A stretch of 64,000 nucleotides of DNA from Cytophagaceae bacterium (GTDB lineage Bacteria > Bacteroidota > Bacteroidia > Cytophagales > Spirosomataceae), in contig JAIXWL010000005.1 in the NCBI GenBank assembly GCA_027491315.1, positions 62,001 to 126,000 of the forward strand. The letters are read 5' to 3'. Shown piece after piece: positions 4,523 through 64,000 of the stretch. Positions within the stretch are counted from its first letter, which is position 1; each line of letters starts with the position of its first letter. The notes beneath the pieces were generated by a model that searched no databases, was not told the origin of the DNA, and saw only the letters and a program-made list of their open reading frames with translations. Made by a program: the position numbers and the translations under genes.

Positions 4523-4560
4523 CTATAGATTAAAAGAACAAAGGAATACAAAAAATGAAT

Positions 4561-15698: not shown

Positions 15699-15726
15699 CA
15701 AGGCTGTTTACCCAGAAAGAAAGCCC

Positions 15727-16314
15727 ATGGAAATTGCCATCGTTAAATACAATGCCGGGAATGTTGCCTCCGTGATGTACGCACTTGATCGAATCGGAGT
15801 GCCGTATCGCTGGACAGACGATGAGACGATTTTACGCCAAGCAGATAAGGTGATTTTTCCTGGCGTAGGAGAAGCTAGTACGGCCATGGCGCATTTAAAA
15901 GAGAAGGGCTTAGATTTACTTATTCCTCAGTTAAAGCAACCCGTTTTAGCTACTTGCATTGGTATGCAACTTCTTTGTAAACACTCAGAAGAAAACGATA
16001 CAACTTGCATGGGAGTATTTGATGTGGAAGTAAAACGTTTTCAGTCGCAGGACTTAAAAATCCCGCATGTAGGATGGAATTCCATCCAGGCCAATCAAGC
16101 GAATCCTTTGATGGAAGGCTTAAAAAATGAAGAATACGTTTATTTTGTTCACTCGTATTATGTGCCTGTAAACCCTCTGACCACAGCCATATGTGATTAT
16201 GTACAGCCATTTTCAGCCATGCTTCACCAAGACAACTTTTATGCTGCCCAGTTTCACGCAGAAATTAGTGGAATGGCAGGCCAACGAATTATAGAAAATT
16301 TTCTCGCATTATAA
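15727..16314 (+). CDS. hisH: Imidazole glycerol phosphate synthase, glutaminase subunit
   Basis: HisH hydrolyses glutamine and channels ammonia to HisF in histidine biosynthesis. The class I glutamine amidotransferase triad is visible: Cys77 in LATCIGMQLLC, and His177 and Glu179 in QFHAEISG. The N-terminal IVKYNAGNVASV and the VGWNSIQ segment are typical, and the 195-residue length is normal. It is the first gene of a tightly packed operon with hisA (three bases between stop and start), hisF and hisIE. The earlier-pathway genes hisG, hisD, hisC and hisB are not in this window. Confidence 0.96.
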   Translation: MEIAIVKYNAGNVASVMYALDRIGVPYRWTDDETILRQADKVIFPGVGEASTAMAHLKEKGLDLLIPQLKQPVLATCIGMQLLCKHSEENDTTCMGVFDVEVKRFQSQDLKIPHVGWNSIQANQANPLMEGLKNEEYVYFVHSYYVPVNPLTTAICDYVQPFSAMLHQDNFYAAQFHAEISGMAGQRIIENFLAL

Positions 16315-16317
16315 ATC

Positions 16318-17052
16318 ATGTTTCAACTTATCCCCGCTATAGATTTAATTGGAGGCCAATGTGTTCGCTTGACCCAGGGTGATTATGCTCAAAAAAAGGT
16401 ATATCATTCGGACCCATTGGAGATTGCAAAGGAATTTGAGGGGGCAGGTATCCAACGATTGCATTTGGTAGATTTGGACGGGGCAAAGGCTAAAAAAATT
16501 GTCAATGCGCATGTTTTGGAAAGAATTGCCAAAGGAACGAACCTTCACATTGATTTTGGTGGAGGTGTACAATCCGACGAAATGATTGATATCGCCTTTT
16601 CAGCAGGAGCCCAACAGATTACGGCTGGTAGCATTGCCGTTAGTCAGCCAGAATTAGTAAGAAGTTGGTTGAAAAAATACGGTGCTGACAAAATCATTTT
16701 AGGCGCTGATGCCCACAATGAGCAAATTGCCGTTTCAGGCTGGCAGGAAAATTCCCAAATTTCCATCTTTGATTTCCTAAGAGACTATTGTGCTGCAGGA
16801 GTAAAATATGTGATATCAACGGATGTGGCCAAAGATGGCTTATTGCAAGGACCTAGTTTTGATTTGTACGAAAAAATACAAGCTCAAGAGCCTGACTTAC
16901 AGCTCATTGCAAGTGGCGGGGTGGCTTGTTTAGATGATTTATACCGACTGCGCGACATGAACATTTTTGGTGTGATAGTTGGAAAAGCCTTTTATGAAGG
17001 ACGAATTAGTTTAGCTGAATTAGCCACCTTTGCCAAAGAATCTGCATGTTAA
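16318..17052 (+). CDS. hisA: ProFAR isomerase HisA
   Basis: HisA opens the ribose of ProFAR to PRFAR, the substrate of HisF-HisH. The TIM barrel of 244 residues has a catalytic Asp near residue 9 in [19 protein letters not shown], phosphate-binding IDFGGGVQS and the second catalytic Asp in [10 protein letters not shown], followed by [13 protein letters not shown]. The last seven bases overlap the first codons of hisF, indicating translational coupling. Confidence 0.96.
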
Positions 17053-48072: not shown

Positions 48073-49791
48073 TTATAAATTACGCTTCTTCAATTCACTC
48101 ACGGCAAAATCAGCCGCACGAGCAGTTAATGCCATGTAAGTCAATGATGGGTTCACGCAAGAAGCCGAAGCCATTGCAGCACCGTCAGTGACAAATACGT
48201 TTTTAACGTTGTGAATCTGGTTATGCTTATTCAATACCGAGGTCTTAGGATCACGACCCATACGAGCAGTACCCATTTCGTGAATACCTAAACCGATATG
48301 TGTATTAGAATTATTGTAGGCATTGATATTTTTAAAACCAGCTGCTTCTAACATTTCAGCCGCGTCATTCATCATATCCTGACGCATTCTAATTTCATTT
48401 TCACCAAATTCTGCTTCAAACTCTAAAACTGGAAGGCCCCACTTATCTTTTTGTGTTTGACTTAAAACAAAACGGTTATTAGGATTTGGAAGAATTTCTC
48501 CAAAACCACCGAAACCAATAGTCCATGAACCTGGCTGAGTTAAACTCTCTTTAAACTCAGCTCCAAATCCATCCATGTTGGTACCACGTCCCCAGCCTGC
48601 ACGGCTAGCTCCACCTTGGTAACCGAAACCACGAATATAGCTACGCTTATCATTACCCCAGTTACGGAAACGAGGGATATATAGACCATTTGGACGGCTT
48701 CCAAACATGTAATCGTCGTTAAATCCTTCAATTTGAGCAGATGCCCCTACACCTAAATGGTGGTCCATGATGTTGCGGCCTAATTGATCGCTATCATTTC
48801 CTAAACCATTGGTGAAGCGGCTCGACTTAGAGTTCATCAAAATGGAGGTAGAACCTATGGCCCCTGCATTAACAAAAATGATTTTAGCAAAATATTCCGT
48901 CACTGCCATCGTGTTTTGGTCAATCACTCGAACACCTTTTGCCTTTTGAGTAGCCTCGTCATAAATAATTTCAGAAACGATGGCATTATGAATCATGGTC
49001 AAGCGTTTAGTACGCATGGCAGCGGGTAAAGTAGCCGAAAGTGAACTAAAATAACCACCATATGGACATCCACGCATACATTTGTTACGATACTGGCATG
49101 CACCTCTACCCAAAGCCGTGTGGTGAGCACCAGGCTGGGTTAAGTGAGCTACACGACCGATAGTAACCGGACGACCTAATTTCTTATTTAATTGCTCTTT
49201 GAAATATACTTCTGGGGCAGTTAAAGCCATAGCCGGTAAGAATTCGGAATCAGGCAATACGTCCAAACCTTCTCTTTGACCTGATATACCAGCAAATTTT
49301 TCTACATAAGAATACCATGGAGCTAAATCCTCGTAGCGAATAGGCCAATCTGTCCCAATACCATCCTTGGCATTTGCTTCAAAATCTTCTTTATTCCAAC
49401 GATAGGATTGACGTCCCCAAAGTAATGATTTACCACCCGTATGATAAGCACGAATCCAGTCGAAACCACCCTTTTTCTCGATGTAGGGATTTTGCTTATC
49501 GTTTTCAAATAAGTAACGATGCTCTTCATTGGGTGTATAACCGGTACGCATACCTGCCCAATATTCTTCCGCCGCCATATTGGTTGGACGACCACGGTGA
49601 GGGAAATCCCAAGGATCTTTCAATGCGGTCTCATAGCCCTCTACGTGTTTAATTTCACGGCCACGCTCTAGCACAGCTACTTTTAATCCTTTTTCAGTTA
49701 ATTCTTTGGCAGCCCAGCCACCTGATATACCAGAGCCTACGACAATAGCATCGAAGGTCTGACTTTTTATTGCATCTATGTTAAGATTCAT
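48073..49791 (-). CDS. GMC family FAD-dependent oxidoreductase
   Basis: A 572-residue flavoprotein that oxidises an alcohol or sugar. It shows the FAD-binding AIVVGSGISGGWAAKELTEKG near residue 15, the GGKSLLWGRQSYRW segment, CRNKCMRGCPYGG typical of sugar dehydrogenases, and the late catalytic HIGLGIHEMGTARMG and VNPSLTYMALTARAADF stretches. There is no export signal of its own; in this family the small subunit, encoded 23 bases upstream, carries the twin-arginine signal and can take the large subunit along. Together they resemble gluconate 2-dehydrogenase-like enzymes without an obvious cytochrome subunit here. Confidence 0.9.
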   Translation of the reverse strand: MNLNIDAIKSQTFDAIVVGSGISGGWAAKELTEKGLKVAVLERGREIKHVEGYETALKDPWDFPHRGRPTNMAAEEYWAGMRTGYTPNEEHRYLFENDKQNPYIEKKGGFDWIRAYHTGGKSLLWGRQSYRWNKEDFEANAKDGIGTDWPIRYEDLAPWYSYVEKFAGISGQREGLDVLPDSEFLPAMALTAPEVYFKEQLNKKLGRPVTIGRVAHLTQPGAHHTALGRGACQYRNKCMRGCPYGGYFSSLSATLPAAMRTKRLTMIHNAIVSEIIYDEATQKAKGVRVIDQNTMAVTEYFAKIIFVNAGAIGSTSILMNSKSSRFTNGLGNDSDQLGRNIMDHHLGVGASAQIEGFNDDYMFGSRPNGLYIPRFRNWGNDKRSYIRGFGYQGGASRAGWGRGTNMDGFGAEFKESLTQPGSWTIGFGGFGEILPNPNNRFVLSQTQKDKWGLPVLEFEAEFGENEIRMRQDMMNDAAEMLEAAGFKNINAYNNSNTHIGLGIHEMGTARMGRDPKTSVLNKHNQIHNVKNVFVTDGAAMASASCVNPSLTYMALTARAADFAVSELKKRNL

Positions 49792-49814: not shown

Positions 49815-50417
49815 TTAATATTGATATGCTTTTTGGCCCGGCTTCAATTTGGTTGGTTCAAATTTGCCTGGAACTGTTACATATTCAAAAGAAGAGGTAA
49901 TTCCTTTTTCAGAAGTAAAGTAACCCAAAAGCGTTAGCTCTTTGATTAATCTCCAGAATGGGACTCCATTATTTCCTTCCAAGGTTTCTTTATCGACATT
50001 ATCGCCCACTTTTTGTTGTTTCAAACGATAGGAACTCATGAGCTCTTTGGTGTTGCTTTCCAACAATTTCAGCATGGCTATTTGACCACTTGCGTTTTGA
50101 CTTAAAAAACCAGCCTTGTCTAAATCAGAAACCCCTTTTAGAAAGCTTCTTTGCTCGGCCAATTTATAGCAATCAGTTAACATTAATTCAATAAATGCAG
50201 GAACTCCAGCTTCAATAGCTCCTGGGGTGGACGTTTTAGGAATAATGTGTTCTGATACGGCAGCCACTATTTTCCTTTGAGTCTCCGACAAGCTAAATGA
50301 TTCAGCCAAGTTAGCCTTGCCAAGGTGTTTCGCTTCCATAGCCATTAATGTCGGAGCGGTAATTGCACCCCCTAACATCACAGCTATTTGTGAGATAGCA
50401 TCTCTTCTTGTAAGCAT
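49815..50417 (-). CDS. Gluconate 2-dehydrogenase subunit 3-like protein
   Basis: A 200-residue small subunit with a twin-arginine-like leader (MLTRRDAISQIAVMLGG). The core shows VAAVSEHIIPKTSTPGAIEAGVP (given here by the shorter segments VSEHIIPKTSTPGA and VPAFIELML), WRLIKELTLLGYFTSEKGI, and the end YEFVTV-like ditto SSFEYVTVPGKFEP, all typical of family Gluconate_2-dh3. It pairs with the GMC enzyme encoded next. A terminator and palindrome lie between this gene and susD, so it is likely transcribed separately. Confidence 0.88.
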   Translation of the reverse strand: MLTRRDAISQIAVMLGGAITAPTLMAMEAKHLGKANLAESFSLSETQRKIVAAVSEHIIPKTSTPGAIEAGVPAFIELMLTDCYKLAEQRSFLKGVSDLDKAGFLSQNASGQIAMLKLLESNTKELMSSYRLKQQKVGDNVDKETLEGNNGVPFWRLIKELTLLGYFTSEKGITSSFEYVTVPGKFEPTKLKPGQKAYQY

Positions 50418-50700: not shown

Positions 50701-52368
50701 TTAGTATCCCGGATTTTGTTTTAAATAACCCGTTAAGTTAGATGCTCCATCAATCGCAGTTTGAGGAATAGGGAACAAACGCATGTTTTTATCCGTATTA
50801 TTTTTCTCTGTCCAAGAATCTTCATATTTACCAAAACGAATTAAATCCGTTCTACGTTGATTCTCCCAATAGAATTCAAAACCACGCTCACGAAGTAAAG
50901 TATTTAAATCAATACTTGTTAAAGCTGGAGCTGGCTTGGTACGTGCTGCACGAACAGCATTAACATCTACCAAGGCACCTGCTGCATCTGACTTACGTAA
51001 TTTAGCTTCTGCACGCATTAAGTAAGCATCAGCTAAACGAATAATCACGATATCTGCCTCACCAAAGTTACGTCCAGAAGAAGACTTCTTGGAGAATTCA
51101 TATTTCTCCACGCGATAGCCTGTGCTGTAATCACTACCTGCAGTAGTAAAGTTCACTGTCTCTGTATGAATAACTAAAGGATAAGGTGCTTTACCACGCG
51201 TATTATACAATGGACCTACTTTAAATTTACCATCTGGACATTTCACAAAGGCTCCGCTTTGAAAAACCAAGCCATATTGTTGACCTCTTAAAATACCACG
51301 GTCAATATTATATGAATTACCATCCACACACTCAACTTTAGGGTCTACATTTCTTCTATAAAAACGAGGATCTGCATCAGCTGGATCAACATTTCCATAA
51401 GCATTTACCCATGAACGATAAAAATCTGGAGTAATGGCAGGACCATCTGTACCATTAGCTGCTGGATAAGCAGGTAGAGGACGCTGGTCATTAGCTAAAG
51501 AGAAATAAGCCATACGGTTATGACCATTCAATTCAGCACGTTGATCTACTGCAAAAACCAATTCCTTATTGGAGTGATTATCATTACCAAAAATTGCAAA
51601 ATAATCTGCTGATAAGGCATACTGACCAGAACTAATAATCTTAGTTGTATATTCAATCACTTTATCCATATCAGCTGCTGAATGGTTTAACGTAGCTCCA
51701 TAAGGATCACGGTAAGCAGCTGCATTTAGGTGCAATTTGGCTAATAAACCCCAAACAGCTCCTTTAGTAATACGACCCGGACCTGTAGTTGTTTCTACAA
51801 TTGGCTCAATAGCTAATAATTCAGTACGAATATATTCCACTGCCTTATCCGTTCTCAAAATGGTAGAAACATCTCCCAAATCTTCCTTTTGAAAAGCAAC
51901 ACCAAATAAATCCAACATCAATAAATTGTAGAATGCACGCATACCACGAGCTTCAGCAATGTAAAGCGTAGATGAGGCATCTTTGTTCACCTTTAAGGAA
52001 TTAATGGCTGTAACCGAGCGAGAAATTCCTTGTAAAATAAGGTTCCAAGTATTTCTTACGTTAGGATCTGTACTCGTCGTTTGGTGACGGTGTAAAGACA
52101 AATAGATACCATTATCACCCCAGTCTGTACCTCCACGATATGGAAGGATAGCCTCATCTGTTGAAATTTCAGTTAAGGCAAACAAATTGGTATGCTGGTA
52201 AATACTAGGCAATAAAGCATAAGCTGGCGCCAAAATTCCATCAGCCGCCTGTTTATCGGTCACTTTAGTAGCATTATACTCATCTAAAATGATTTCATTC
52301 AAATTGGTACAGCTATAAAAAGCCATCATACCAAAAAGAACTATGGTTATTTTTCCTATCTTTTTCAT
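50701..52368 (-). CDS. SusD/RagB family surface glycan-binding lipoprotein
   Basis: A 555-residue lipoprotein (signal ending in AFYSCTN, Cys near residue 20) that forms the lid of the SusC porin and binds the imported glycan or peptide. Typical SusD segments are present: AEARGMRAFYNLLMLDLFG near residue 138, the TPR-like helices with AVWGLLAKLHLNAAAYRD, and the C-terminal RLADAYLMRAEAKLRKSDAAGALVDVNAVR with LRERGFEFYWENQRRTDLIRFG. It follows SusC by 13 bases. The GMC and LacI genes flank the pair. Confidence 0.94.
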   Translation of the reverse strand: MKKIGKITIVLFGMMAFYSCTNLNEIILDEYNATKVTDKQAADGILAPAYALLPSIYQHTNLFALTEISTDEAILPYRGGTDWGDNGIYLSLHRHQTTSTDPNVRNTWNLILQGISRSVTAINSLKVNKDASSTLYIAEARGMRAFYNLLMLDLFGVAFQKEDLGDVSTILRTDKAVEYIRTELLAIEPIVETTTGPGRITKGAVWGLLAKLHLNAAAYRDPYGATLNHSAADMDKVIEYTTKIISSGQYALSADYFAIFGNDNHSNKELVFAVDQRAELNGHNRMAYFSLANDQRPLPAYPAANGTDGPAITPDFYRSWVNAYGNVDPADADPRFYRRNVDPKVECVDGNSYNIDRGILRGQQYGLVFQSGAFVKCPDGKFKVGPLYNTRGKAPYPLVIHTETVNFTTAGSDYSTGYRVEKYEFSKKSSSGRNFGEADIVIIRLADAYLMRAEAKLRKSDAAGALVDVNAVRAARTKPAPALTSIDLNTLLRERGFEFYWENQRRTDLIRFGKYEDSWTEKNNTDKNMRLFPIPQTAIDGASNLTGYLKQNPGY

Positions 52369-52381: not shown

Positions 52382-55300
52382 TTAAAATGTAAGATTTAAG
52401 CCGAAGATGACAGATTTAGCTTTTGGATAGCTTAAGTAGTCAATTCCATAAGATAATACTCCGTTCATAGAGCTATCTTTATTTACCTCTGGATCAAATC
52501 CATCGTAATTGGTAGCAATCCATAAGTTTTGTCCTGTTACAGATAAGCGTAAAGTTGAAACCCACTTACTAATTCCTAGTTTTTGTGTGTCAAACGTGTA
52601 TCCCAAAGTAGCGTTGTTCAAACGTAAGAAACCGCCATCTTTTAAGAAACGAGTAGACACAGGAGCTGCATTACTGTTCGATTCTCTTGAATCAGCAAAT
52701 GCTGCCGGCGTTGTATTGGAGTTTTTCGCAATTTTCAACTTATAGAAATTCGAGTTGGCTGTATTATCATAAATTTTATTTCCAGCAACTCCGTTGAATT
52801 GTAAAGACAAGTCAAATCCTTTGTAAGCTAAATTTCCAAAGAAGTTATACTGTGTTGATGGCAAGGCTGTTCCTGCTGCAATACGATCTTTATCTGTTAC
52901 AATTCCATCACCATCCACATCACGGTAAACACTCATACCTTTGTCATCATATCCAGTAAATTCTTTCAAGAAGAATGTACCGATAGGCTGTCCATTGATA
53001 TAACCATTGATGGTAGCTGATGTCAAACCTGAACCAGAGGCAGAACCTGAAGGTATTACTGTGTAAGGTGAGCCTACAACTTCGTTTTTAATCAAAGTCA
53101 AGTTACCACCTAAACTATATTTCCAACCAGTTTCAGTCGTTCCTTTATATTCCAAATCCAATTCTAAACCACTGTTATTGATTTTCATATCTTTCACGTT
53201 TGCCCAAACTGATGAAGCAGGTTGAACAGGATCTGAAGGAATTACTTCCAATAACATGTTGTTAGAAACTTTGTTGAAATAATCTATCGATCCAGAGAAT
53301 GCTCCATTTCCGAATGCAAAATCCAAACCAATGTTACTTTGCGTTGAAACCTCCCATTGAATATCTGGATTAGCTAAACGAGAATAGGTAATTCCTGATG
53401 GGAAAGTTGAAGTATTATCCAAAGGATAAGAAGTTGTTCCAGAGATGGTCGAAGTAAACAAAGGCTGTGTAATTTTCGAAGGTATCTCTTGGTTACCTGT
53501 TTGTCCCCAACCTGCACGTAATTTCAAGTTGCTGATATCGGTATTCTTCAAGAAAGCTTCTTCAGAAATTCTCCATCCTAAAGAGAAGGAAGGAAACACA
53601 CCGTATTTGTTATTAGCACCAAATTTAGATGAACCGTCAGCACGAACAGTGGCTGTCACCAAGTACTTATCTTTATATTGGTAGTTAAAACGACCAAAAT
53701 AAGATTGTAACTCATTGATAAATGCTGAACCACCTGGTTTATTCGTTGCCATCGTTAATTCTTGACCTACACCTGGGTTATAGATTGGGTCAATTGGCAA
53801 ATCCGCAGGGAATTTATTGATACTCCAGTTACGGTATTGAACTTTAATTTTTTGATATGAATGACCTACCAAAGCAGAGAAATTATGATCTCCGTTGTCA
53901 TAGGTATACGTCAAATAGTTCTCAACCAAACGGTTGTTATTATTAGCTAAATATGAATCTAAACGACCATCTTGTTTTGGAATGTTACTACCTAATGATT
54001 GAATATCACGCGTTGAAGTTGAATTATCCAAACCAAAGTTCAAACGATACACTAAGCCTTTCACAATTTTCAAGGATGGTGAAATGCTAGCAATCGTACG
54101 GTTGATGGTTGTAATGTCTTTAAACAAAGTCAATCCTAACAAAGGGTTAGAAGCTGTGGCATAACGAGCCAAAGATCCATCTGCCGCATAAGCAGGGAGT
54201 GTCGGGTTGTTCGCAATGGCTGTTCCTAACAATCCTTCAATGGATGGACGCTCATTATTAGTATTGGTTACATTTAAATTAGCATCAACAACCAAACGAT
54301 CCTCCCAAAACTTCTGAGTCACATTGATACGACCTGTGTAACGATCTAATTGGTTATTTTTCAATATGCCTTCTTGAGTTTGTGCTCCAAAAGAAGCATA
54401 GTAAGAAAGCTTATTGGCTCCACCACCCAAACTCAAGTTATAGTTTTGAGTTAAAGCCTGACGTGTAACTTCTTTTTGCCAATCTGTATTTCCTCCGAAA
54501 TCTTCCAAGTTACCGCCATTGGCTACTACTTGTTTACGGAATTCAGATGCTGATAAAACAGGTAATGCACGAGCGATGTTTGAAACAGCTAAACTAGAGC
54601 TGAAATTCAAAGTTGAAACACCCGCCTTACCCTTTTTAGTAGTAATTAAAACTACACCATTGGCACCACGAGCACCATAAATAGCAGTGGCAGATGCATC
54701 TTTTAACACGTCAATGGTTTCAATGTCCTGAGGATTCAAGAAGTTCAATGGATTTCCTCCACCTGTACTTGAATTATCCAAAGCTAAACCATCAATGACA
54801 AATAATGGAGTACTCCCAGTACGAATACCTCCTGGTCCACGAATCGTAATTCCTTGATTACCACCTGGCTCACCCGTGGCAGAGGTAACATTAACACCAG
54901 CCACTTTACCCTGTAATAATTGCTCTGGAGAGTTGATGATACCTTTATTAAAGGCCGCGCTTTGAACCGACTTAACAGAACCTGTTACATCACGCTTGTT
55001 TTGTGTACCATAACCTACCACAACTACCTGTGCCAAGTCAGCGGCATTGGCCACCATGGCAATTTCTAATGATGATTTAGAACCTACGCTTACTTCTTGA
55101 GTAGCATAACCAAGGTAGCGAACTACCAATACCGCGTTGTCATTTGGTACTGAAATAGTAAATGCACCATTTACATCCGTGCTTACTCCTTTGGTTGTAC
55201 CCTTAAGAATTACGTTACCGCCGATGAGTGCCTCTTTGGTAGTGGCATCAAACAATCGACCTTTAATTTGTTTACCCGCTTGTGCATTCAAATTGAATGT

Positions 55301-55399
55301 CCCAAGCATGATGATACTGGCTACAAAAAATAGTACTATCCGAGTACTTGCATTTCGTAACAAAGCACACCATAATGGATCGTGTAATTGTTTTTTCAT
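52382..55399 (-). CDS. SusC/RagA family TonB-linked outer-membrane transporter
   Basis: A 1005-residue TonB-dependent porin for oligomer import, working with SusD. Order: signal peptide, a CarboxypepD-like N-terminal domain (KGRLFDATTKEALIGGNVIL), the TonB-box and plug start (VVVGYGTQNKRDVTGSVKSV), the plug motif VIDGLALDN with LKDASATAIYGARGANGVVLI, and the 22-strand barrel ending KSVIFGLNLTF. The ATG before KKQLHDPL was chosen; a further upstream one would add 26 residues without signal features. A LacI-type operator lies 88 bases upstream, so sugar-responsive control is likely. Substrate cannot be deduced. Confidence 0.94.
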   Translation of the reverse strand: MKKQLHDPLWCALLRNASTRIVLFFVASIIMLGTFNLNAQAGKQIKGRLFDATTKEALIGGNVILKGTTKGVSTDVNGAFTISVPNDNAVLVVRYLGYATQEVSVGSKSSLEIAMVANAADLAQVVVVGYGTQNKRDVTGSVKSVQSAAFNKGIINSPEQLLQGKVAGVNVTSATGEPGGNQGITIRGPGGIRTGSTPLFVIDGLALDNSSTGGGNPLNFLNPQDIETIDVLKDASATAIYGARGANGVVLITTKKGKAGVSTLNFSSSLAVSNIARALPVLSASEFRKQVVANGGNLEDFGGNTDWQKEVTRQALTQNYNLSLGGGANKLSYYASFGAQTQEGILKNNQLDRYTGRINVTQKFWEDRLVVDANLNVTNTNNERPSIEGLLGTAIANNPTLPAYAADGSLARYATASNPLLGLTLFKDITTINRTIASISPSLKIVKGLVYRLNFGLDNSTSTRDIQSLGSNIPKQDGRLDSYLANNNNRLVENYLTYTYDNGDHNFSALVGHSYQKIKVQYRNWSINKFPADLPIDPIYNPGVGQELTMATNKPGGSAFINELQSYFGRFNYQYKDKYLVTATVRADGSSKFGANNKYGVFPSFSLGWRISEEAFLKNTDISNLKLRAGWGQTGNQEIPSKITQPLFTSTISGTTSYPLDNTSTFPSGITYSRLANPDIQWEVSTQSNIGLDFAFGNGAFSGSIDYFNKVSNNMLLEVIPSDPVQPASSVWANVKDMKINNSGLELDLEYKGTTETGWKYSLGGNLTLIKNEVVGSPYTVIPSGSASGSGLTSATINGYINGQPIGTFFLKEFTGYDDKGMSVYRDVDGDGIVTDKDRIAAGTALPSTQYNFFGNLAYKGFDLSLQFNGVAGNKIYDNTANSNFYKLKIAKNSNTTPAAFADSRESNSNAAPVSTRFLKDGGFLRLNNATLGYTFDTQKLGISKWVSTLRLSVTGQNLWIATNYDGFDPEVNKDSSMNGVLSYGIDYLSYPKAKSVIFGLNLTF

Positions 55400-55486
55400 G
55401 AATTGATTTTTTGAAATGGTAATTTTTGGGTTTAAAAATTTTTGAAATTTACCGATTAATAATTGTAATATCTTCACAAATTTTTA

Positions 55487-55500
55487 CGCAAACGTTTGCA
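55487..55500. promoter_or_regulatory. LacI-type operator upstream of susC
   Basis: CGCAAACGTTTGCA contains the perfect 12-base palindrome GCAAACGTTTGC with central CG, typical of LacI/GalR-family operators. It sits between the lacI gene and susC, the expected place for control of susC-susD. Confidence 0.75.
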
Positions 55501-55591: not shown

Positions 55592-56611
55592 CTAGGATCG
55601 AAGGGAGGATTCCCGAATGATTAACTTGGGATCCAGAGAAATAGTAACCGGATCTAGCTTTTGATCTTTTTTGGATAAAAACAATTTGGCAGCTTCTTCT
55701 CCTATCTTTCTACTTTGTCTGGAAACAGAACTCAGAGGAGGATGACCAAAGGAAGCAAGTGGAATATCATCAAATCCAACAATGGCTACTTCTTCTGGAA
55801 CAGCTATACCCATTTCCCTCAATACATACATCGCCGCTATACATACTTCATCATTCACCCCAAAAATGGCATCCGGCTTGATTGTCCCCTGCATTAAATA
55901 TCGGGTTGCCTCAATGGCACTTTCCGCCGAAAAGTGAACATATTCAATCAGGTCTACATCCACTTGCCGTCCATGCGCCTTCAAACAATCTTGGTACCCC
56001 ATAAAACGCTGTTGAGACACACTAATTCCTGAAGGACCATGCAAATGAGCAATGCGCTGACAGCCCATGTCAATCAAATGTTGGGTGGCCATATAAGCCC
56101 CTTGGTAGTCATCTGTCACTACGCGGTCCGAAGCCACACCATGATTAGGGCGATCAATAAAAATCACAGGCAATGACCTTTGAATGACCCGATCAATATG
56201 CTCACCCAATTGTTGGTCATAACTTTCCTGGGCCATGGAAATAAACAAGCCATCTACCCGATTGGCCAATAATCGATCTATATATTCTTTTTCAATAGTG
56301 TGCGACTCGTTACTTACGCAGATATTCAACAAATAACCTGATTTCAGTAGAATTTCTTCCATTCCTTCCAATATGGAAGACTCATGATAGTGGGTAATTG
56401 ATGGCAAAACAAGTCCCAAAGTCATGGAACAATTATTCAACAAACTAAGCGAAAGGGTATTTTTTTGATAACCGACCTTTAGGGCATATTCTTGAATGGT
56501 TTTCCTCGTTTCAATATTAATAGCAGGATGATCATTCAATGCCCGCGAGATAGTAGATGGCGCACATTTAAACTTCTTAGCTATATCTTTTATAGAAACA
56601 GAATTATTCAA
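55592..56611 (-). CDS. LacI family transcriptional regulator
   Basis: A 339-residue regulator with an N-terminal HTH (VSIKDIAKKFKCAPSTISRAL and NDHPAINIETR, residues 5-36), a hinge, and a periplasmic-binding-protein-like ligand domain with MTLGLVLPSI, RVDGLFISMAQES, RPNHGVASDRVVTDDY, AHLHGPSGISVSQQRF and VAIVGFDDIPLASFGHPPLSSV. It is in the same orientation as the susC-susD genes, and a good operator lies between, so it likely controls them in response to a sugar. It is also divergent from the MFS-DUF1501 operon, which might be a second target. Confidence 0.93.
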   Translation of the reverse strand: MNNSVSIKDIAKKFKCAPSTISRALNDHPAINIETRKTIQEYALKVGYQKNTLSLSLLNNCSMTLGLVLPSITHYHESSILEGMEEILLKSGYLLNICVSNESHTIEKEYIDRLLANRVDGLFISMAQESYDQQLGEHIDRVIQRSLPVIFIDRPNHGVASDRVVTDDYQGAYMATQHLIDMGCQRIAHLHGPSGISVSQQRFMGYQDCLKAHGRQVDVDLIEYVHFSAESAIEATRYLMQGTIKPDAIFGVNDEVCIAAMYVLREMGIAVPEEVAIVGFDDIPLASFGHPPLSSVSRQSRKIGEEAAKLFLSKKDQKLDPVTISLDPKLIIRESSLRS

Positions 56612-56674
56612 GTTATCAGTATATTGGTAAGTATTTCAAATATATAATTTTTTTGTGTGAAAAATCGTTTTCAA

Positions 56675-56787: not shown

Positions 56788-58158
56788 ATGACTACTTCGA
56801 ATCCTGAATTCGATAATAATAAGATTCCCGTAAAGAAACTTTGGCAAGTAATCATCGCCTCCTCCGTTGGAACCGTCATTGAATGGTATGATTTCTATAT
56901 TTTTGGTAGCCTTTCAGCCATCATCTCTCTTTCCTTTTTCCCAAAAGATGATCCTACTGCTGCCTTTATCTCCACATTGGCTGCCTTTGGGGCAGGTTTT
57001 GTAGCCCGGCCGTTTGGTGGTATCATATTCGGTCGACTAGGCGATCGGATAGGCAGAAAATATACATTTTTATTAACCCTGGTTTTAATGGGTGGTTCTA
57101 CCTTTGCCATAGCCTTTATTCCAAGTTATTCAGATATTGGAATCATAGCACCGGCCATATTACTTTTATTAAGGATTATTCAAGGGCTAGCACTAGGTGG
57201 AGAATACGGAGGTGCTGCTACCTATGTAGCCGAATATGCCCCTGATGCGCATCGTGGTAAATACACGGCCTATATTCAAACTACGGCTACTTTAGGTTTC
57301 TTTGTTTCCATCATCGTTATTTTGATTTGCCAAAAAATCATGGGAGATGTAGAATTCAAAGCTTGGGGCTGGCGTATTCCCTTTGCTCTATCAGGAATTT
57401 TGGTCATCGTTTCCTATTTCATTCGTAGAAATATGCATGAATCCCCTCTTTTTGCCCGACTGAAAAAAGAAGGCCGTCTATCTGAAAACCCATTAAGAGA
57501 AGCATTTGCTAGCAAGTCCAATCGTCGATTGATGCTGATTGCTATGTTTGGGGCCATTGTTGGACAAGGGGTCGTTTGGCATACGGGTCAATTCTATGCT
57601 CAAATTTTCATTAATAAAATTTTGATGGTCGATTTCACGACCACCAATTTAATTATTGCGGCATCTTTGGTCGTAGGGACTCCCCTCTTTGTTGTTTTTG
57701 GAAGTTTATCTGACCGAATTGGTAGAAAAAAAATCATGCTAGGCGGAATGGCCTTAGCAGCCATAAGCTATTATCCTTTGTTTGCTTGGATGTCTGATAT
57801 CGTGGCGCAAGAAGGAACCTTGGTGGATGGAGTCTATTTATTAACTACCACAGGAACAGTCAAATTAGCATTCATATGCATCTTGTTGGTCACCTTTGCG
57901 GCTATGGCCTATGGACCTATTGCCGCTTTTTTAGTGGAATTATTCCCTACTAAAATTCGCTATACTTCTCTATCAATTCCTTACCATTTTGCCAACGGGG
58001 TATTTGGGGGTTGTGCTCCCTTTGTGGCTACTTGGTTAGGTGCCATAACACATTCCAATTTCTCTGGTATATTTTATCCCATCACGCTAGCTGCACTTAC
58101 AGTTATCATTGGGGCTATTTATTTACCAGAAACAAAAGGACGAGCTATAATGGATTAA
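56788..58158 (+). CDS. MFS metabolite:H+ symporter (MHS family)
   Basis: A 456-residue inner-membrane symporter with twelve predicted helices. MHS-family signatures: the first helix SVGTVIEWYDFYIFG, the GRPFGGIIFGRLGDRIGRKYTF region (as FGRLGDRIGRK near residue 82), the PxGGEYGG-like IIQGLALGGEYGGAATY, and the matching SLSDRIGRKKIMLGG in the second half. Members import organic acids, osmolytes or aromatic compounds with protons. It is the first gene of a five-gene operon; the next gene starts four bases after its stop. Regulation could come from the divergent LacI protein. Confidence 0.9.
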   Translation: MTTSNPEFDNNKIPVKKLWQVIIASSVGTVIEWYDFYIFGSLSAIISLSFFPKDDPTAAFISTLAAFGAGFVARPFGGIIFGRLGDRIGRKYTFLLTLVLMGGSTFAIAFIPSYSDIGIIAPAILLLLRIIQGLALGGEYGGAATYVAEYAPDAHRGKYTAYIQTTATLGFFVSIIVILICQKIMGDVEFKAWGWRIPFALSGILVIVSYFIRRNMHESPLFARLKKEGRLSENPLREAFASKSNRRLMLIAMFGAIVGQGVVWHTGQFYAQIFINKILMVDFTTTNLIIAASLVVGTPLFVVFGSLSDRIGRKKIMLGGMALAAISYYPLFAWMSDIVAQEGTLVDGVYLLTTTGTVKLAFICILLVTFAAMAYGPIAAFLVELFPTKIRYTSLSIPYHFANGVFGGCAPFVATWLGAITHSNFSGIFYPITLAALTVIIGAIYLPETKGRAIMD

Positions 58159-58162
58159 GGTC

Positions 58163-59632
58163 ATGAACAAAATTATACAAGAAGCTATCCAACGAGAGGC
58201 CCAACTAGCTACAAGAAGGCACTTTTTAAGTAGTCTGGGTACAGGACTTGGCTCTTTGGCTCTTGGTAGTTTTTTGACCAATTGTAGTTCCGATACAGGT
58301 AAGCAATTTGCTTCTCCCTTGGCCGCAAAAAGTTCCCCAAAACTAGGTAAAGCCAAGTCGGTCATTTTTTTACACATGGCAGGGGCTCCGTCCCAGCTTG
58401 AGTTATTTGATTACAAGCCAAGTTTGGCCAAATTTGATGGTAAAGAATGTCCGCAAGAATTATTGGCTGGCAAGAAATTCGCCTTCATTCGCGGAGTGCC
58501 TAATTTACTTGGCCCCAAAGCTCATTTCGAACAAAGAGGACAAGCTGGGCACTGGATTTCAGACTACCTTCCACATTTAGCTAGTCAAGCAGATCGTGTA
58601 AGCTTCCTAAAAGGGATGCATACTGACCAGTTTAACCATGCCCCAGCACAACTTTTAATGCATACAGGATCAGCTCGCCTAGGCAGACCCAGCATGGGTT
58701 CATGGGTGAGTTATGGCCTTGGAACAGAAAATCAAAATCTACCTGGATTCGTGGTATTGGCCTCCGGTGGAAAAAATCCGGATGCTGGAAAATCAGCCTG
58801 GGGAAGTGGATTTTTACCCTCCATTTACCAAGGCGTGCAATGTCGCTCAGAGGGAGAACCCATCCTATTTATTCAAAACCCTCAGGGGATCAATGCTGAT
58901 GTTCGAAAAGCAAGTATTGAAACCATCAACCAAATCAACCAAGAAACATACCAAGAATTTGGTGACCCCGAAACCGTAGCCCGCATTGCCCAGTACGAAA
59001 TGGCCTATAAAATGCAAAGCTCCGTACCCGAGGTGATGGATATCAATAAAGAACCTGCCTATATCCATGAAATGTACGGCACCGAACCAGGAAAAGAATC
59101 TTTTGCCAATAACTGTTTATTGGCTAGAAAGCTGGTGGAGCAAGGGGTACGCTTTGTGCAACTGTTCGACTGGGGATGGGATACCCATGGAACGGGATTA
59201 GATGGTTCTGTGGATTATGGTTTACATCAAAAATGCCGACAAATAGATAAAGCATCCACTGCGCTATTAGTGGATTTGGAGCAACGTGGTTTATTGGATG
59301 AAACCTTAGTTGTTTGGGGAGGAGAGTTTGGTCGAACACCCATGCAAGAAAATAGAGAGGGAAAACAACTCGCTTACTTTGGAAGAGACCATCATACAGA
59401 AGCCTTTACTATGTGGTTAGCAGGAGGAGGGATCAAACCTGGGGTTTCTTATGGTGAAACGGATGATTTAGGCTATTCAACCATTTCCGGAAAAACTTCG
59501 GTTTATGATTTACAGGCTACCATTCTCCAATGTTTAGGTTTTAACCATGAGGAATTTACCTATCCATTCCAAGGTCGTAATTTCCGATTAACCGATGTTT
59601 TTGGCAAAGTAATTGATCCTATTTTGGCATGA
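58163..59632 (+). CDS. DUF1501 (sulfatase/phosphatase-fold) exported protein
   Basis: A 489-residue protein with a twin-arginine-like leader (TRRHFLSSLGTGLGSLALGS) and a lipobox-like TNCSS after it. It has the DUF1501 features: SVIFLHMAGAPSQLELFDYKP near residue 70, SFLKGMHTDQFNHAPAQLLMHTG near residue 150, NLPGFVVLASGGKNPDAGKSAWGSGFLP, and LVVWGGEFGRTPMQEN with the HHTEAFTMWLAGGGIKPG end. The family has an alkaline phosphatase-like fold but is not characterised. It overlaps the start of the next gene by four bases (ATGA), indicating coupling. Confidence 0.88.
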   Translation: MNKIIQEAIQREAQLATRRHFLSSLGTGLGSLALGSFLTNCSSDTGKQFASPLAAKSSPKLGKAKSVIFLHMAGAPSQLELFDYKPSLAKFDGKECPQELLAGKKFAFIRGVPNLLGPKAHFEQRGQAGHWISDYLPHLASQADRVSFLKGMHTDQFNHAPAQLLMHTGSARLGRPSMGSWVSYGLGTENQNLPGFVVLASGGKNPDAGKSAWGSGFLPSIYQGVQCRSEGEPILFIQNPQGINADVRKASIETINQINQETYQEFGDPETVARIAQYEMAYKMQSSVPEVMDINKEPAYIHEMYGTEPGKESFANNCLLARKLVEQGVRFVQLFDWGWDTHGTGLDGSVDYGLHQKCRQIDKASTALLVDLEQRGLLDETLVVWGGEFGRTPMQENREGKQLAYFGRDHHTEAFTMWLAGGGIKPGVSYGETDDLGYSTISGKTSVYDLQATILQCLGFNHEEFTYPFQGRNFRLTDVFGKVIDPILA

Positions 59633-62418
59633 AAAACCTCATCATTATCTCCATTATAAGTATTGTAGGCTTTTTTGTCGTCAGGCCATTTTGGGGAAAT
59701 GATACACGCATTGATTATAATACCCAAGTAAAACCCATCTTAAATAAAAACTGCATAAGCTGCCATGGTGGAGTCAAAAAACAAGGCGGTTTCAGTCTTT
59801 TGTTCAGAGAAGAGGCTTTAGGGAAAACAAAATACAATGCTGCGGCTATTATCCCAGGGCATCCTGAAAAATCGAGCTTCATTCGTCGTTTGACCTTGAA
59901 GGATCCAGAAGAAAAAATGCCTTATAAAAGGCCTGCTTTATCTCAAAAAGAAATCGATATTTTAACCCAATGGGTCAAAGAAGGTGCTCAATGGGGGGAA
60001 CATTGGGCCTATCAACCCATAAAAAAACCATCCGTCCCTTACAGCTCTTGGTGGAAACAAGCTCTTTCATGGATAGGCATCAATGCCGGATGGGAGGAAA
60101 ATGAAATAGACCATTTTGTAGGAGCTAAGCAATCAGAAATGGGACTGGGCCATCAGTCTAAGGCTGAGAAGGCCGACTTACTAAGGCGGTTAAGTTTAGA
60201 TTTAACTGGACTTAGCCCCACAGAGGCAGAATACAGGGCATTCGAAAAAAATGATTCCAAAGATGCTTATGAAAAAAAGGTGGATGAATTATTGAATTCC
60301 CCCAGATTTGGAGAAAAATGGGCCAGTATGTGGATGGATTTGGCCAGATATGCGGATACCAAAGGATATGAAAAAGACGACAAACGAAGTATCTGGAGAT
60401 ACCGCGATTATGTCATTGAATCCTTTAATCAGAACAAAGCTTATGACCAATTCATTACAGAACAATTAGCTGGTGATTTATTACCCAATCCCAAAGAAAG
60501 TCAATACGTGGCAACTGCCTTTCATCGAAATACAGCGAATAATGATGAAGGTGGAACAGAGGATGAAGAATTCAGGGTGGCGGCCATCCTGGACCGGGTA
60601 AATACCACCTGGGAGGCACTGCAAGGAACGAGTTTTTCTTGCGTTCAATGCCATTCCCACCCTTATGACCCAATCCGCCATGAGGAATATTATCAATACA
60701 TGGCTTATTTCAATAATACTAGAGATGAAGATGTTCCAGACGAATCTCCCTATTATCGACATTTCAAATCATCTGATCAACAACGTGTTGATTCCCTATT
60801 ACAATTTATCCAAGTCAAATATCCAAAAGACCATCAAGCTTGGAAACGAAGTATTCAATTTGTTGAACCCAAAATACATCCTCATTGGGCCGATGAATTT
60901 GTCAATGGTGCCCTACAAGACAATAAGTATTTAGCTGTCCGTCCGGGTGGATCAGTCCGATTTAAAGCCGTACCGATGAATGGCAAAACAGAAATGTTAA
61001 TTGCCTATAAAAATACCAATGAGGCTCCGTCTCAATTAGTGATTCGGCAGGGCTCATTACAGGGTAAGGTGATTAGCCAAATAAAACTAGATACCACTTT
61101 ATCCGAAAAAGAAGGCCTGAAAAAAGGTAATTGGGCACATGGCTGGACTTATGCCTTTTTCACCCTACCTGCCTTGGAAGGAAAACAAGATTTATATTGG
61201 TCATTTAGCAATAAAACCTGCCAAGCAGATCAAAATACGGCCGTCATTGCATATTGGATGTTATTACCCAAAACACCGGAAGCTTTAAAAAACACGAACT
61301 TTTTATCAACAGTTAAACGATTAATCAGTACGCAACCTGATGGCACAACGCCTATCTTATTAGAAAATCCAGAAGAATATACCCGCAAGACCCCCGTATT
61401 CGAAAGAGGAAGCTGGTTGGTACCAGGTAAATACGTAGAGCGATCTATCCCTCATTTATTTGCCAAGCAATACAATAAACCTGTCCGAAATCGATTGGAA
61501 TTAGCTCAATGGATGAGCAGCCCACAGAATCCTCTCACAGCGCGAGTGGCGGTAAATCGTTTTTGGGAACAACTGTTTGGCACGGGCCTAGTGGAAACTT
61601 TAGAAGATTTAGGAAGTCAAGGCCTTTCTGCCAGCCACCAAGACCTATTGGATTTTTTAGCTTACCAATTTCAATTTACCTTTCAATATAAGCCCAAAGA
61701 ATTTATCAAATACGTGGTAATGTCTGCTACGTACCAGCAAAGCTCCGAACATACTAAAGAGTCCATAGAAAAAGATCCGAACAACCGCTATTTGAGCCAT
61801 GGACCTAGAATCCGCTTAAGCCCTGAGCAGCTTCGCGATCAAGCCTTATTGTGGTCAGGATTATTATCCTCTAAAGTAGGTGGCCCAAGTGTCATGCCGG
61901 AGCAACCAGAAGGAATATGGAATGCTCCATACAGTGGCATGAAATGGACTAAAAGTGATGGGGAAGATCAATGGCGACGTTCCCTGTATACCTATTGGCG
62001 ACGTAGCAGTCCTTATCCCACACAGGTTACTTTTGATGCAGGAACTCGTGATATTTGTTTATCCAGACGAATCCGAACCAATACCCCGATGCAGGCACTG
62101 AACACCTTAAATGACCCTGTTTTTATGGAATGTGCTTTATTCTTTGCTAGAAAATTTCCGAAACAAGATGAGGAGAAATTCATTGAGAAGGCATTTTTTC
62201 AACTTTTTGGCAAGGAAATCAGTTCGGCAAAAAAGAAATATTTAGTGAATTTTTATCAAAAGGTACTTCCTATCTACCAAAAAGACCAAGGTAAGTGTCG
62301 AGAATTTTTACATCTTTGTCCAGATAATACCATGCCGCAAGAGGCCCCTGCTTTAATTGCTCGAACCCTTGTCAGCAATGTATTATTTAACCTAGATGAA
62401 AGTGTCAATAAACCTTAA
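59629..62418 (+). CDS. Planctomycete-type cytochrome c / DUF1549 / DUF1553 protein
   Basis: A 929-residue exported protein of the PSD1 and planctomycete cytochrome C type. A signal anchor is followed by a c-type cytochrome-like domain with CISCHGG (residues 44-50), then DUF1549 (around RRLSLDLTGLSPTEAEYRAF and WMDLARYADTKGYEKDDKR) with a second heme-type motif CVQCHSHPYDP. A beta-rich insert of about 150 residues resembling a carbohydrate-binding module follows, then DUF1553 (ARVAVNRFWEQLFGTGLVETLEDLGSQG, with RTNTPMQALNTLNDP). It overlaps the DUF1501 gene by four bases. A redox or glycan-degradation role is inferred from context. Confidence 0.88.
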   Translation: MKNLIIISIISIVGFFVVRPFWGNDTRIDYNTQVKPILNKNCISCHGGVKKQGGFSLLFREEALGKTKYNAAAIIPGHPEKSSFIRRLTLKDPEEKMPYKRPALSQKEIDILTQWVKEGAQWGEHWAYQPIKKPSVPYSSWWKQALSWIGINAGWEENEIDHFVGAKQSEMGLGHQSKAEKADLLRRLSLDLTGLSPTEAEYRAFEKNDSKDAYEKKVDELLNSPRFGEKWASMWMDLARYADTKGYEKDDKRSIWRYRDYVIESFNQNKAYDQFITEQLAGDLLPNPKESQYVATAFHRNTANNDEGGTEDEEFRVAAILDRVNTTWEALQGTSFSCVQCHSHPYDPIRHEEYYQYMAYFNNTRDEDVPDESPYYRHFKSSDQQRVDSLLQFIQVKYPKDHQAWKRSIQFVEPKIHPHWADEFVNGALQDNKYLAVRPGGSVRFKAVPMNGKTEMLIAYKNTNEAPSQLVIRQGSLQGKVISQIKLDTTLSEKEGLKKGNWAHGWTYAFFTLPALEGKQDLYWSFSNKTCQADQNTAVIAYWMLLPKTPEALKNTNFLSTVKRLISTQPDGTTPILLENPEEYTRKTPVFERGSWLVPGKYVERSIPHLFAKQYNKPVRNRLELAQWMSSPQNPLTARVAVNRFWEQLFGTGLVETLEDLGSQGLSASHQDLLDFLAYQFQFTFQYKPKEFIKYVVMSATYQQSSEHTKESIEKDPNNRYLSHGPRIRLSPEQLRDQALLWSGLLSSKVGGPSVMPEQPEGIWNAPYSGMKWTKSDGEDQWRRSLYTYWRRSSPYPTQVTFDAGTRDICLSRRIRTNTPMQALNTLNDPVFMECALFFARKFPKQDEEKFIEKAFFQLFGKEISSAKKKYLVNFYQKVLPIYQKDQGKCREFLHLCPDNTMPQEAPALIARTLVSNVLFNLDESVNKP

Positions 62419-62443
62419 TACTAATCAACCTCTTAAAATACCT

Positions 62444-63517
62444 ATGAACAAGTCCATTCAACGCAGAGATTTTTTAAAAACTAGCTCCGTTTTAGTTGGC
62501 GGTAGCCTCTTATCAACCTCAAATACTATGAAAAAAATTGCCCCAAAACCTGGCGAAATCGTGATAGGTCACAACAATTTTAAATTTAAGGTCATTCCCA
62601 ACTGGGGAATCCTAGATGCTGGCAAAAACCCTGTCAACGACTGCCATGAAATGGTGGAAGACGCCAAGGGTCGTTTGTTTTTATTAACCAATGAAACCAA
62701 AAACAATGTTTTGATTTATGATAAATCAGGAAAGTTATTAGACTCTTGGGGACATACCTATCCGGGAGCACATGGTTTAACTATTTTAAATGAAGGTGGA
62801 GAACAGTTTTTATTGATTTGCGATAACACTCGCCATCAGGTCATCAAAACAGATTTAAAAGGTAAGGAAATTTTCAAAATCGAATATCCTAAAGAAACGG
62901 GAGTCTATGACCATCCGCATCAATTCGTTCCAACGGAAACGGCGGTTAATCCTAAGAATGGGGATATCTACGTAGCTGATGGTTATGGAGCAAATTATAT
63001 TATTCAATATGATGCAAAGGGAAAATACATTCGTCATTTTGGAGGAAAGACAAACGACTATGATGATAATTTATTCAATTGCTGCCATGGTGTTTTAGTG
63101 GATACACGAGATCCTAAAAATTGGACACTCTTAGTGACAGACCGTGTGAATAATAGTTTTAAACGATTCACCTTAGACGGAAAATTCATTACTCGTTACC
63201 ATTTACCGGGTTCCTTTGTATGCCGTCCTAACTTACATGGAGATCATATTGTAGCCGCATGTTTCCGCAGTGGAGATGGTAATTGGCCGGGATCTGGTTA
63301 TGTACAGATTTTAGATAAAGACATGAAAGTAGTCTCTACCCCTGGAGGTTCAGAGCCTATTTATAAAAATGGTGTTTTACAAAGACAGCACAAAGATGAC
63401 GAGAATAAGGTATTCATTCATCCTCATGATGTTTATGCCGATTCTGATCATAATATCTATGTAGCACAATGGGCATCTCAAAAGACTTACCCTATTAAAT
63501 TGGAACGTATCGGCTAA
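62444..63517 (+). CDS. Exported NHL-repeat / six-bladed beta-propeller protein
   Basis: A 357-residue protein with leader MNKSIQRRDFLKTSS (twin-arginine-like). The rest consists of repeated propeller strands: GRLFLLTNETKNNVLIYDKSGKLL, DNTRHQVIKTDLKGKEIFKIE, NGDIYVADGYGANYIIQYDAKGKYIRHFGG and NIYVAQWAS. The DGYGxNYI and HDVYAD signatures are typical of NHL propellers. It follows the cytochrome gene by 25 bases and the DUF2231 gene by one base. An upstream in-frame ATG overlaps the previous gene and was not used. It may bind a ligand or catalyse a lyase reaction; I cannot say which. Confidence 0.85.
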   Translation: MNKSIQRRDFLKTSSVLVGGSLLSTSNTMKKIAPKPGEIVIGHNNFKFKVIPNWGILDAGKNPVNDCHEMVEDAKGRLFLLTNETKNNVLIYDKSGKLLDSWGHTYPGAHGLTILNEGGEQFLLICDNTRHQVIKTDLKGKEIFKIEYPKETGVYDHPHQFVPTETAVNPKNGDIYVADGYGANYIIQYDAKGKYIRHFGGKTNDYDDNLFNCCHGVLVDTRDPKNWTLLVTDRVNNSFKRFTLDGKFITRYHLPGSFVCRPNLHGDHIVAACFRSGDGNWPGSGYVQILDKDMKVVSTPGGSEPIYKNGVLQRQHKDDENKVFIHPHDVYADSDHNIYVAQWASQKTYPIKLERIG

Positions 63518-63518
63518 T

Positions 63519-64000
63519 ATGGTGCTTGTGTTGGACTCGGAGCTAACTCCAGATTGGATTCTATTTTTTGGTCATTTTCATCCCATGTTGGTGCATTTAC
63601 CTATCGGTATGCTCCTCATGGGAATGATTTTATATGTATTTTCCAAAAAAGAGGAAGTTTCCAGACAAAAGTCCATCGCCCCAATTTTATTGAGTACTGG
63701 AATCACCGCAGGTATTTCATGTGCTATGGGCTGGAGCCTCTCTTTGGCCGGCGAATATGATGTGGATACCTTGTTTTTACATCAATGGCTAGGAATAAGT
63801 CTAGCTATTAGCTCAGTAGCACTAGCTTACATGGCACAGTATTGGTCTCAGGATGCAATAATGTCTCGCTTTTTCAAACCTGGATTAATCATTACATTTA
63901 TCTTGGTTATGGCAACTGGTCATTTAGGAGGAAATCTAACCCATGGTTCGGATTATTTGAGTACCTACTTACCTCAACCCATGCGGGCGTGGTTTGGCAT
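63519..64000 (+). CDS. DUF2231 membrane protein (3' end outside window)
   Basis: An open frame of 160 codons from ATG to the edge of the window, starting one base after the NHL gene stop. It shows the DUF2231 pattern: FGHFHPMLVHLPIGMLLM with a first helix, further helices with ITAGISCAMGWSLSLAGEY and WLGISLAISSVALAYMA, and the ATGHLGGNLTHG motif near residue 140. Conserved His residues in membrane segments suggest heme binding. In other genomes such proteins are often fused to a C-terminal cytochrome c domain, so a heme domain may follow outside this window (inference). Confidence 0.8.
   Translation, partial: MVLVLDSELTPDWILFFGHFHPMLVHLPIGMLLMGMILYVFSKKEEVSRQKSIAPILLSTGITAGISCAMGWSLSLAGEYDVDTLFLHQWLGISLAISSVALAYMAQYWSQDAIMSRFFKPGLIITFILVMATGHLGGNLTHGSDYLSTYLPQPMRAWFG

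Follow-up and report, generated by a model that had tools for sequence, protein, structure and literature searches.

We describe an operon of five genes in a 64,000-nucleotide stretch (hereafter the window) of the genome of a Cytophagaceae bacterium (Bacteroidota; assembly GCA_027491315.1, contig JAIXWL010000005.1, positions 62,001 to 126,000). The operon encodes an MFS transporter, a DUF1501 protein, a protein composed of PSCyt1, PSCyt2 and PSD1 domains (the PSD1 protein), an NHL propeller and a membrane protein that joins a DUF2231 domain to PSCyt1 and leucine-rich repeats (LRR; the whole protein is called DUF2231c below). We propose, with a probability of about 0.45, that the operon is one copy of a recurring exported module for carbohydrate processing in the periplasm, which would probably be oxidative and send electrons to the membrane. 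The core genes, those for PSD1, DUF1501, NHL and DUF2231c, are grouped beyond chance, as seen in their co-occurrence across genomes and in their shared strand.

All five genes lie on the forward strand in one tight unit from 56788 to 65003, and the coordinates, overlaps and gaps that an earlier reading of the letters of the window (the sequence-only reading) had given for a tight operon were confirmed, as were the families of all five genes by Pfam (Table 1). In NCBIfam, DUF1501 and DUF2231 had no match and PSD1 only a weak one, to a cytochrome domain. The DUF2231 gene had been placed correctly, with its extent now corrected: it passes the window edge, the first 160 of its 494 amino acids being inside the window and the continuation on the contig (locus L007, 8519-10003), and it carries PSCyt1 and LRR parts too. 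The first ATG of the NHL gene, at 62396, overlaps the PSD1 gene by 23 bases; the true start is likely 62444, as in the sister species, which leaves a 25-base gap. Following the suggestion to look beyond DUF2231, we find that the next open reading frame of at least 80 amino acids begins about 650 bases after the stop at 65003, and that two terminator-like sites lie at or past this stop (0.4 expected in shuffles). A long repeat protein, adhesin-like by reading, stands about 650 bases past the operon and runs off the contig end (L007, 10655-13672).

We searched 194 genomes of the order for relatives of the NHL protein, taking a match of over 230 bits as strong; 66 of the 194 have a match at E up to 0.001 and 46 a strong one. 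PSD1 occurs in 54 of these genomes and accompanies a strong NHL match in 44 (Fisher 2.5e-31); Fisher tests take genomes as independent, and the fairer count is by genus, where PSD1 is found in 21 of 22 NHL genera (7e-16). Two NHL genomes show no PSD1, and in one of them the locus has a masked stretch and cannot be scored. DUF2231c is present in 58 of the 194 genomes, a count that takes in two weak matches (G046, G074) and one confined to the heme part (G166). At least 55 are matched by the membrane part, of which 53 have PSD1. Within 9.5 kb of NHL, at 41 loci (our own and 40 from strong matches), PSD1 is found in 19, DUF1501 in 20, DUF2231c in 17 and all three in 16. The sequence-only reading had staked its claim beforehand on co-occurrence in other genomes, and NHL, PSD1, DUF1501 and DUF2231c do occur together; the comparison of gene order that it proposed gives a recurring core with shuffled order, NHL and core genes sharing a single strand in 20 of 20 linked loci. 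Its larger idea of all five families as a conserved unit is not supported, with MFS and LacI found beside NHL in 2 of the 41 loci, both in the window's genus. The families thus stay together in a genome even when the NHL gene is placed apart, and the transporter is local.

These counts bear on an alternative, suggested by the sequence-only reading, in which the operon is transport-centred, MFS and LacI defining an acid or sugar as substrate and the other genes serving it. Tight gene spacing and the palindromes shared with the divergent locus (see below) would fit such an arrangement, but the core persists without MFS and LacI outside those two loci, and we hold the explanation to be improbable.

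Beyond the order, DUF1501 was scanned for in GTDB species genomes, and the best 80 of 583 confirmed matches were used for all counts in this paragraph. Of the 80 DUF1501 genes, which come from several phyla, 68 have PSD1 on the same strand at a distance of no more than 5 kb (14 of 16 Bacteroidota-titled records, 53 of 63 others and 1 of 1 contig labelled Beijerinckiaceae), and three of the 12 loci without it have DUF1501 at the contig end. DUF2231c, in contrast, is near DUF1501 in 12 of 16 Bacteroidota loci and in 2 of 63 others, so that the operon is Planctomycete-like, as had been claimed, in its PSD1-DUF1501 pair, which those phyla have in common, and not in its DUF2231c. NHL is near DUF1501 in 2 of 80 loci and DUF1800 in 0 of 80. 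The whole genomes of 40 of the 80 loci include 36 with an NHL match, mostly at about 30% identity and in several Verrucomicrobiota at 35-46%; for such relatives (~30% identity) in other phyla a control without PSD1 is lacking, and co-occurrence there is not claimed. Genes of about 300 amino acids stand right after DUF1501 at L114 (4589-5521), L118 (11744-12613), L121 (11655-12569) and L122 (11501-12379); those of L114 and L118 match the AP_endonuc_2 TIM barrel, that of L121 has no Pfam match, and those of L121 and L122 read like that of L114. DUF2231c follows in L114, L121 and L122. The Beijerinckiaceae-titled contig (L120) carries a Bacteroidota-type operon whose DUF1501 is 66% identical, and is perhaps misbinned or the result of transfer.

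The module also recurs within its own genome (2.92 Mb), which has six DUF1501 genes and six PSD1 matches in five genes, four of these genes being elsewhere, at three places beyond the window. Of the other five DUF1501 genes, four sit in similar cassettes (two at L008, one each at L009 and L010), and the remaining one adjoins a DUF1800 gene (L011). One paralog fuses DUF2231, two copies of PSCyt1, PSCyt2 and PSD1 (L008, 14427-17282), and the membrane part is therefore tied to PSD1. Oxidoreductases are found near three cassette loci, namely GMC in the divergent unit of the window, FAD_oxidored at L009 and a glucose/sorbosone-dehydrogenase-cytochrome at L010, a nearness that may be due to chance. 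A glucose/sorbosone dehydrogenase with a cytochrome domain (3818-5230) and a second protein of similar type (15085-16341) flank the cassette at L010. In the DUF1800-DUF1501 pair at L011 (7633-10543) the DUF1501 protein bears a type IX secretion system (T9SS) tail, and this type may act outside the cell.

The PSD1 protein contains PSCyt1, PSCyt2 and PSD1 in this order (Pfam 46.5, 269 and 284 bits, all above cutoff). In its first heme c motif C42, C45 and H46 are, like M97, at least 90% conserved, and P98 is invariant (40 sequences); the second motif (C338, C341, H342) is invariant in 40 of 40. Profile matches to cytochromes c include FoxE (6.4e-6) and 4rlr (0.0084). In the predicted structure (predicted local distance difference test, pLDDT, 88.6) residues 413-548 resemble 2v4v (Z 17.2, root-mean-square deviation 1.8, 118 residues aligned), with a Foldseek match to 1gmm (1.5e-6), and no Pfam family, CBM_6 included, was found for residues 401-572 at E up to 10. 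We name this domain CBM6-like, after a family of carbohydrate-binding modules (CBM), because it shows the CBM6 fold without a Pfam CBM_6 match. The lists of matches in the PDB are filled by this insert, the helical core being barely covered. Profile comparison of the C-terminal half with DUF1800 gives scores of 34-40 against nulls of at most 20.6, with HHalign's own probability at 10-61%, and the two are probably distantly related. We do not claim that PSCyt2 and the N-terminal half of DUF1800 are homologous (score 24 against a null of 25).

DUF1501 has a twin-arginine translocation (Tat) motif and, in an AlphaFold model (pLDDT 89.4), the alkaline phosphatase (AlkP) fold, its best Z scores being 19.8 to ENPP6 and 19.4 to PafA, with Z of 19-20 over about 245-285 residues. 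Compared by profile with 26 sulfatases, which come from 30 loci of relatives, DUF1501 reaches a probability of 94-95%, with the C-terminal core aligned, and the DUF1800-paired type one of 39%; only the C-terminal core is significant, the N-terminal alignment (profile score 13.2) having been rejected. The sulfatase motif C-x-P-S-R-x4-T-G corresponds in spacing to H159-A-P-A-Q-x4-T-G of DUF1501 (P at +2, TG at +9/+10), and His159 is invariant in 94 of 94 DUF1501 sequences. His is likewise found in 26 of 26 of the DUF1800-paired type, where +2 is R and +9 is T/S in 24 of 26 each. The invariant His159 would thus stand at the AlkP nucleophile position, the columns being matched by motif spacing only. 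The Ser, Thr or Cys (formylglycine) nucleophile of hydrolytic AlkP members is not seen at this place in DUF1501, and there is no Asp among the commonest residues after its first strand; Asp340, His342, Glu388 and His410 are invariant. The genome has twelve sulfatase matches in 2.9 Mb, and twelve genomes of the same genus, of varying completeness, have 0 to 18.

Such an architecture could also belong to a carbohydrate-cleaving module without redox chemistry, in which DUF1501 would be an AlkP metal hydrolase or lyase, PSD1 its substrate-binding partner, a part that DUF1800 may play elsewhere, and the hemes structural or redox-sensing. The AlkP fold, the likeness of PSD1 to DUF1800 and the CBM6-like domain are all compatible with this, as are the heme-free neighbours of DUF1501 elsewhere, DUF1800 adjoining it in 26 of 30 loci among the matches listed (73 positive genomes of 118). 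It accounts poorly, however, for a nucleophile position (by spacing) that is occupied by the invariant His described above, with no Asp after the first strand, and two heme c motifs accompanied by a cytochrome-like membrane partner that is nearly always found with PSD1 are hard to take as structural. We regard it as rather unlikely.

The remaining core proteins would supply a lyase and a membrane cytochrome. The NHL propeller matches 3fvz, the peptidyl-hydroxyglycine lyase (PAL), over residues 104-268 (E 7.9e-11, 45 bits). His126, Tyr197, His231, Arg250, His344 and Asp345 are invariant in 41 of 41 aligned orthologs, and these six align with the Zn-binding His triad, Tyr, Arg and Asp of the PAL active site, His344 and Asp345 in a second, weak segment; a further Arg of the PAL active site could not be placed. 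The Tat motif (Arg23-Arg24) is also invariant in 41 of 41, and the protein is a putative metal lyase, PAL-like by its conserved residues. DUF2231c has His21, His26, His88, CxxCH and Met254 in 30 of 30 sequences and His135 and His142 in 29 of 30, and by hydropathy the conserved His lie towards the side on which the heme c domain is found. This His cluster possibly fits heme b or a metal site. A b561 profile match is weak (0.0021) and confined to the fusion paralog.

Heme c motifs in both a membrane-linked and an exported protein might equally serve reductive or extracellular electron transfer, with electrons passing from quinol through DUF2231c and PSD1 to an outward acceptor, and a porin-multiheme system is discussed for metagenome-assembled genomes, as a separate system, by He et al., 2017 (PMC5615132). 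Each protein here has one or two heme motifs only, and the CBM6-like and lyase-like parts together with the LacI/SusCD link point to carbon use, which makes this direction of flow very improbable.

That link comes from the divergent locus, where a LacI-family regulator and a SusC-SusD unit ending in a gluconate 2-dehydrogenase subunit 3-like protein and a GMC oxidoreductase lie on the other strand. GCAAACGTTTGC, upstream of SusC, which we take to be like a LacI operator, has a single exact copy in the genome and 7 further with one mismatch, against 3 with at most one mismatch for its backward control; both it and TGAAAAATCGTTTTCA, between LacI and MFS, are present in the sister species (G086). 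The palindromes suggest that one LacI protein governs both the SusC-SusD-subunit 3-GMC unit and the operon. Across the order, Gluconate_2-dh3 occurs in 42 of 54 PSD1 genomes against 43 of 140 without PSD1.

Under the oxidative reading that we favour, PSD1 would hold the sugar by its CBM-like domain and would form a complex with DUF1501, thereby standing where DUF1800 stands beside other DUF1501 proteins. Either this complex or a dehydrogenase encoded nearby (here GMC and subunit 3) would carry out an oxidation and deliver electrons to PSCyt1 of PSD1. From there the heme c of DUF2231c could receive them, and they would reach the quinone pool or an oxidase via the conserved His cluster, possibly with heme b. 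The NHL lyase might act on the oxidised product, the MFS symporter would bring in a small acid or sugar fragment, and LacI would sense the product and control both divergent units. An exported redox pathway for a carbon source had been put forward by the sequence-only reading; an exported set with heme motifs acting on a carbon source is indeed favoured by the CBM6-like domain and the palindromes with SusCD/GMC, and its redox role is what we infer.

Several observations weigh against this reading. Of the 54 genomes in the order that have PSD1, 10 are without a strong NHL match; at 21 of 41 loci the NHL gene has no core gene within 9.5 kb; and NHL is absent in 2 of 6 Bacteroidota among the 40 whole genomes taken from the DUF1501 scan. 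GMC/Gluconate_2-dh3 as an obligate electron donor is rejected, as 12 PSD1 genomes are without Gluconate_2-dh3. The heme-free DUF1800 beside DUF1501 elsewhere would imply that electrons are not needed for every DUF1501, and for heme b in DUF2231c only the conserved His speak.

A bolder form of the idea, which we think quite unlikely, is that PSD1/DUF1501 is a new heme-coupled enzyme on the AlkP scaffold. The nucleophile would have become an invariant His at the metal site, electrons would leave via the PSD1 hemes to DUF2231c, and a glycan-linked group would be oxidised to a hydroxylated (hemiacetal- or hemiaminal-like) product that the PAL-like NHL lyase would split. If true, this would be a bacterial heme-driven counterpart of PHM-PAL oxidative cleavage (peptide amidation), serving carbon capture.

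Table 1. Features of the operon and of the divergent locus (window positions)
Feature	Position	Strand	Remarks
MFS transporter	56788-58158	+	metabolite/H+ symporter-like; 351 bits, under TIGR00883 cutoff of 443
DUF1501	58163-59632	+	4-base gap after MFS; PF07394 493 bits, cutoff 27
PSCyt1-PSCyt2-(CBM6-like)-PSD1	59629-62418	+	ATGA overlap with DUF1501; two CxxCH heme c motifs
First heme c motif, C42-x-x-C45-H46 (PSCyt1 of PSD1 protein)	59752..59766	+	Met97-Pro98 downstream
Second heme c motif, C338-x-x-C341-H342 (PSCyt2 of PSD1 protein)	60640..60654	+	followed by invariant His344
CBM6-like beta-sandwich within PSD1 protein, residues 413-548	60865..61272	+	structure comparison
NHL propeller, Tat motif, putative metal lyase, peptidyl-hydroxyglycine-lyase-like	62396..63517	+	similarity to 3fvz
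DUF2231-PSCyt1-LRR membrane protein	63519..64000 in window, to 65003 on contig	+	1-base gap after NHL
LacI-family regulator	55592..56611	-	PF13377 5e-30; PF00356 27.3 bits, cutoff 27; divergent from operon
SusC/RagA TonB-linked receptor	52382..55477	-	TIGR04056 739 bits
SusD-family lipoprotein	50701..52368	-	PF07980 5e-25
Gluconate 2-dehydrogenase subunit 3-like protein	49815..50417	-	PF13618 2e-27; N-terminus reads as Tat-type (L012 13815-14417)
GMC oxidoreductase (FAD), final gene of divergent SusC-SusD locus	48073..49791	-	PF05199 5.3e-22, PF00732 8.9e-12 (L012 12073-13791)
Perfect palindrome GCAAACGTTTGC, putative LacI operator	55488..55499	.	upstream of SusC
Palindrome TGAAAAATCGTTTTCA, putative second LacI site	56658..56673	.	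between LacI and MFS

Two further features adjoin or punctuate this region. Next to the GMC gene is a 1235-amino-acid protein (44303-48010, forward strand; L012, 8303-12010) that combines SASA (acetylesterase) domains with a T9SS tail. Three intergenic hairpins (36655, 50661 and 56688) share the core CAAGGTTT-n-AAACCTTG and have matching flanks; one of them separates SusD from subunit 3 and another LacI from MFS, and they represent an interspersed repeat or terminator-like element.

Part of this picture is already known, namely the gene family, its conserved neighbours and the idea of a carbohydrate or redox role. In the accessible parts of the papers cited here, PSCyt/PSD proteins are reported to adjoin two unknown gene families in a conserved manner and to have CBM-type domains and a possible carbohydrate role, their functions being stated as wholly unknown (He et al., 2017; PMC5615132); redox reactions have been suggested for them, and R. 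baltica is credited with 41 copies apiece of two domains (PMC2754498). DUF1501 genomic clusters in Planctomycetes-Verrucomicrobia-Chlamydiae (PVC) bacteria are cited (PMC4452313), the DUF1800-DUF1501 pair is described beside bacterial chitin synthases, with a twin-arginine motif in DUF1501 (PMC5122149), and PSCyt1 serves as a cytochrome label (PMC11495043); the accessible part of PMC5673643 gave no mention of DUF1501 or DUF1549. A functional study of the PSD1-DUF1501 pair was not found in the open-access literature, searched in part, nor was any mention there of a lyase-like partner, of the change at the AlkP site, of the link to DUF1800, of DUF2231c as a cytochrome or of the promoter link; prior art may be missed.

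The PSCyt/PSD1 families are very numerous in Planctomycetota, and no function in print was found for them in the literature so searched. With four PSD1 cassettes plus a fused one in 2.9 Mb, and with one of these in a defined LacI/SusCD setting, this Bacteroidota genome is a small system for testing function. Experiments could start from the lyase-like partner, whose active-site residues are conserved, from the altered site in the AlkP fold, from the CBM-like domain or from the candidate membrane cytochrome.

Compared with known systems, the 3-keto-glycoside pathway of Bacteroidota, which is not known to include a heme module, is a candidate likeness only: a GMC and subunit 3 pair is present here on the divergent unit, AP_endonuc_2 TIM-barrel genes follow DUF1501 in some relatives, and at L052, an NHL locus that lacks PSD1, a neighbouring gene looks like Gfo/Idh by reading. 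In PAL, the lyase part of eukaryotic PAM, the NHL propeller and the active-site residues are alike, although the match is confined to part of the propeller and a PHM-like monooxygenase is not among the Pfam matches of the operon. The AlkP superfamily (NPP/ENPP, PafA and sulfatases) shares the fold and the C-terminal core, but has a Ser, Thr or formylglycine nucleophile where DUF1501, by spacing, has His, with no Asp after the first strand. The DUF1800-DUF1501 pair, of which our genome has one, likewise combines DUF1501 with an adjoining partner, probably a distant relative of PSD1, but no heme motifs were matched and there is no DUF2231c there. Finally, the PSCyt/PSD1 and DUF1501 clusters of Rhodopirellula baltica, freshwater Verrucomicrobia and PVC bacteria have the same domains, whereas the operon described here belongs to Bacteroidota and combines them with DUF2231-PSCyt1-LRR and a lyase-like NHL protein in a SusCD/LacI setting.

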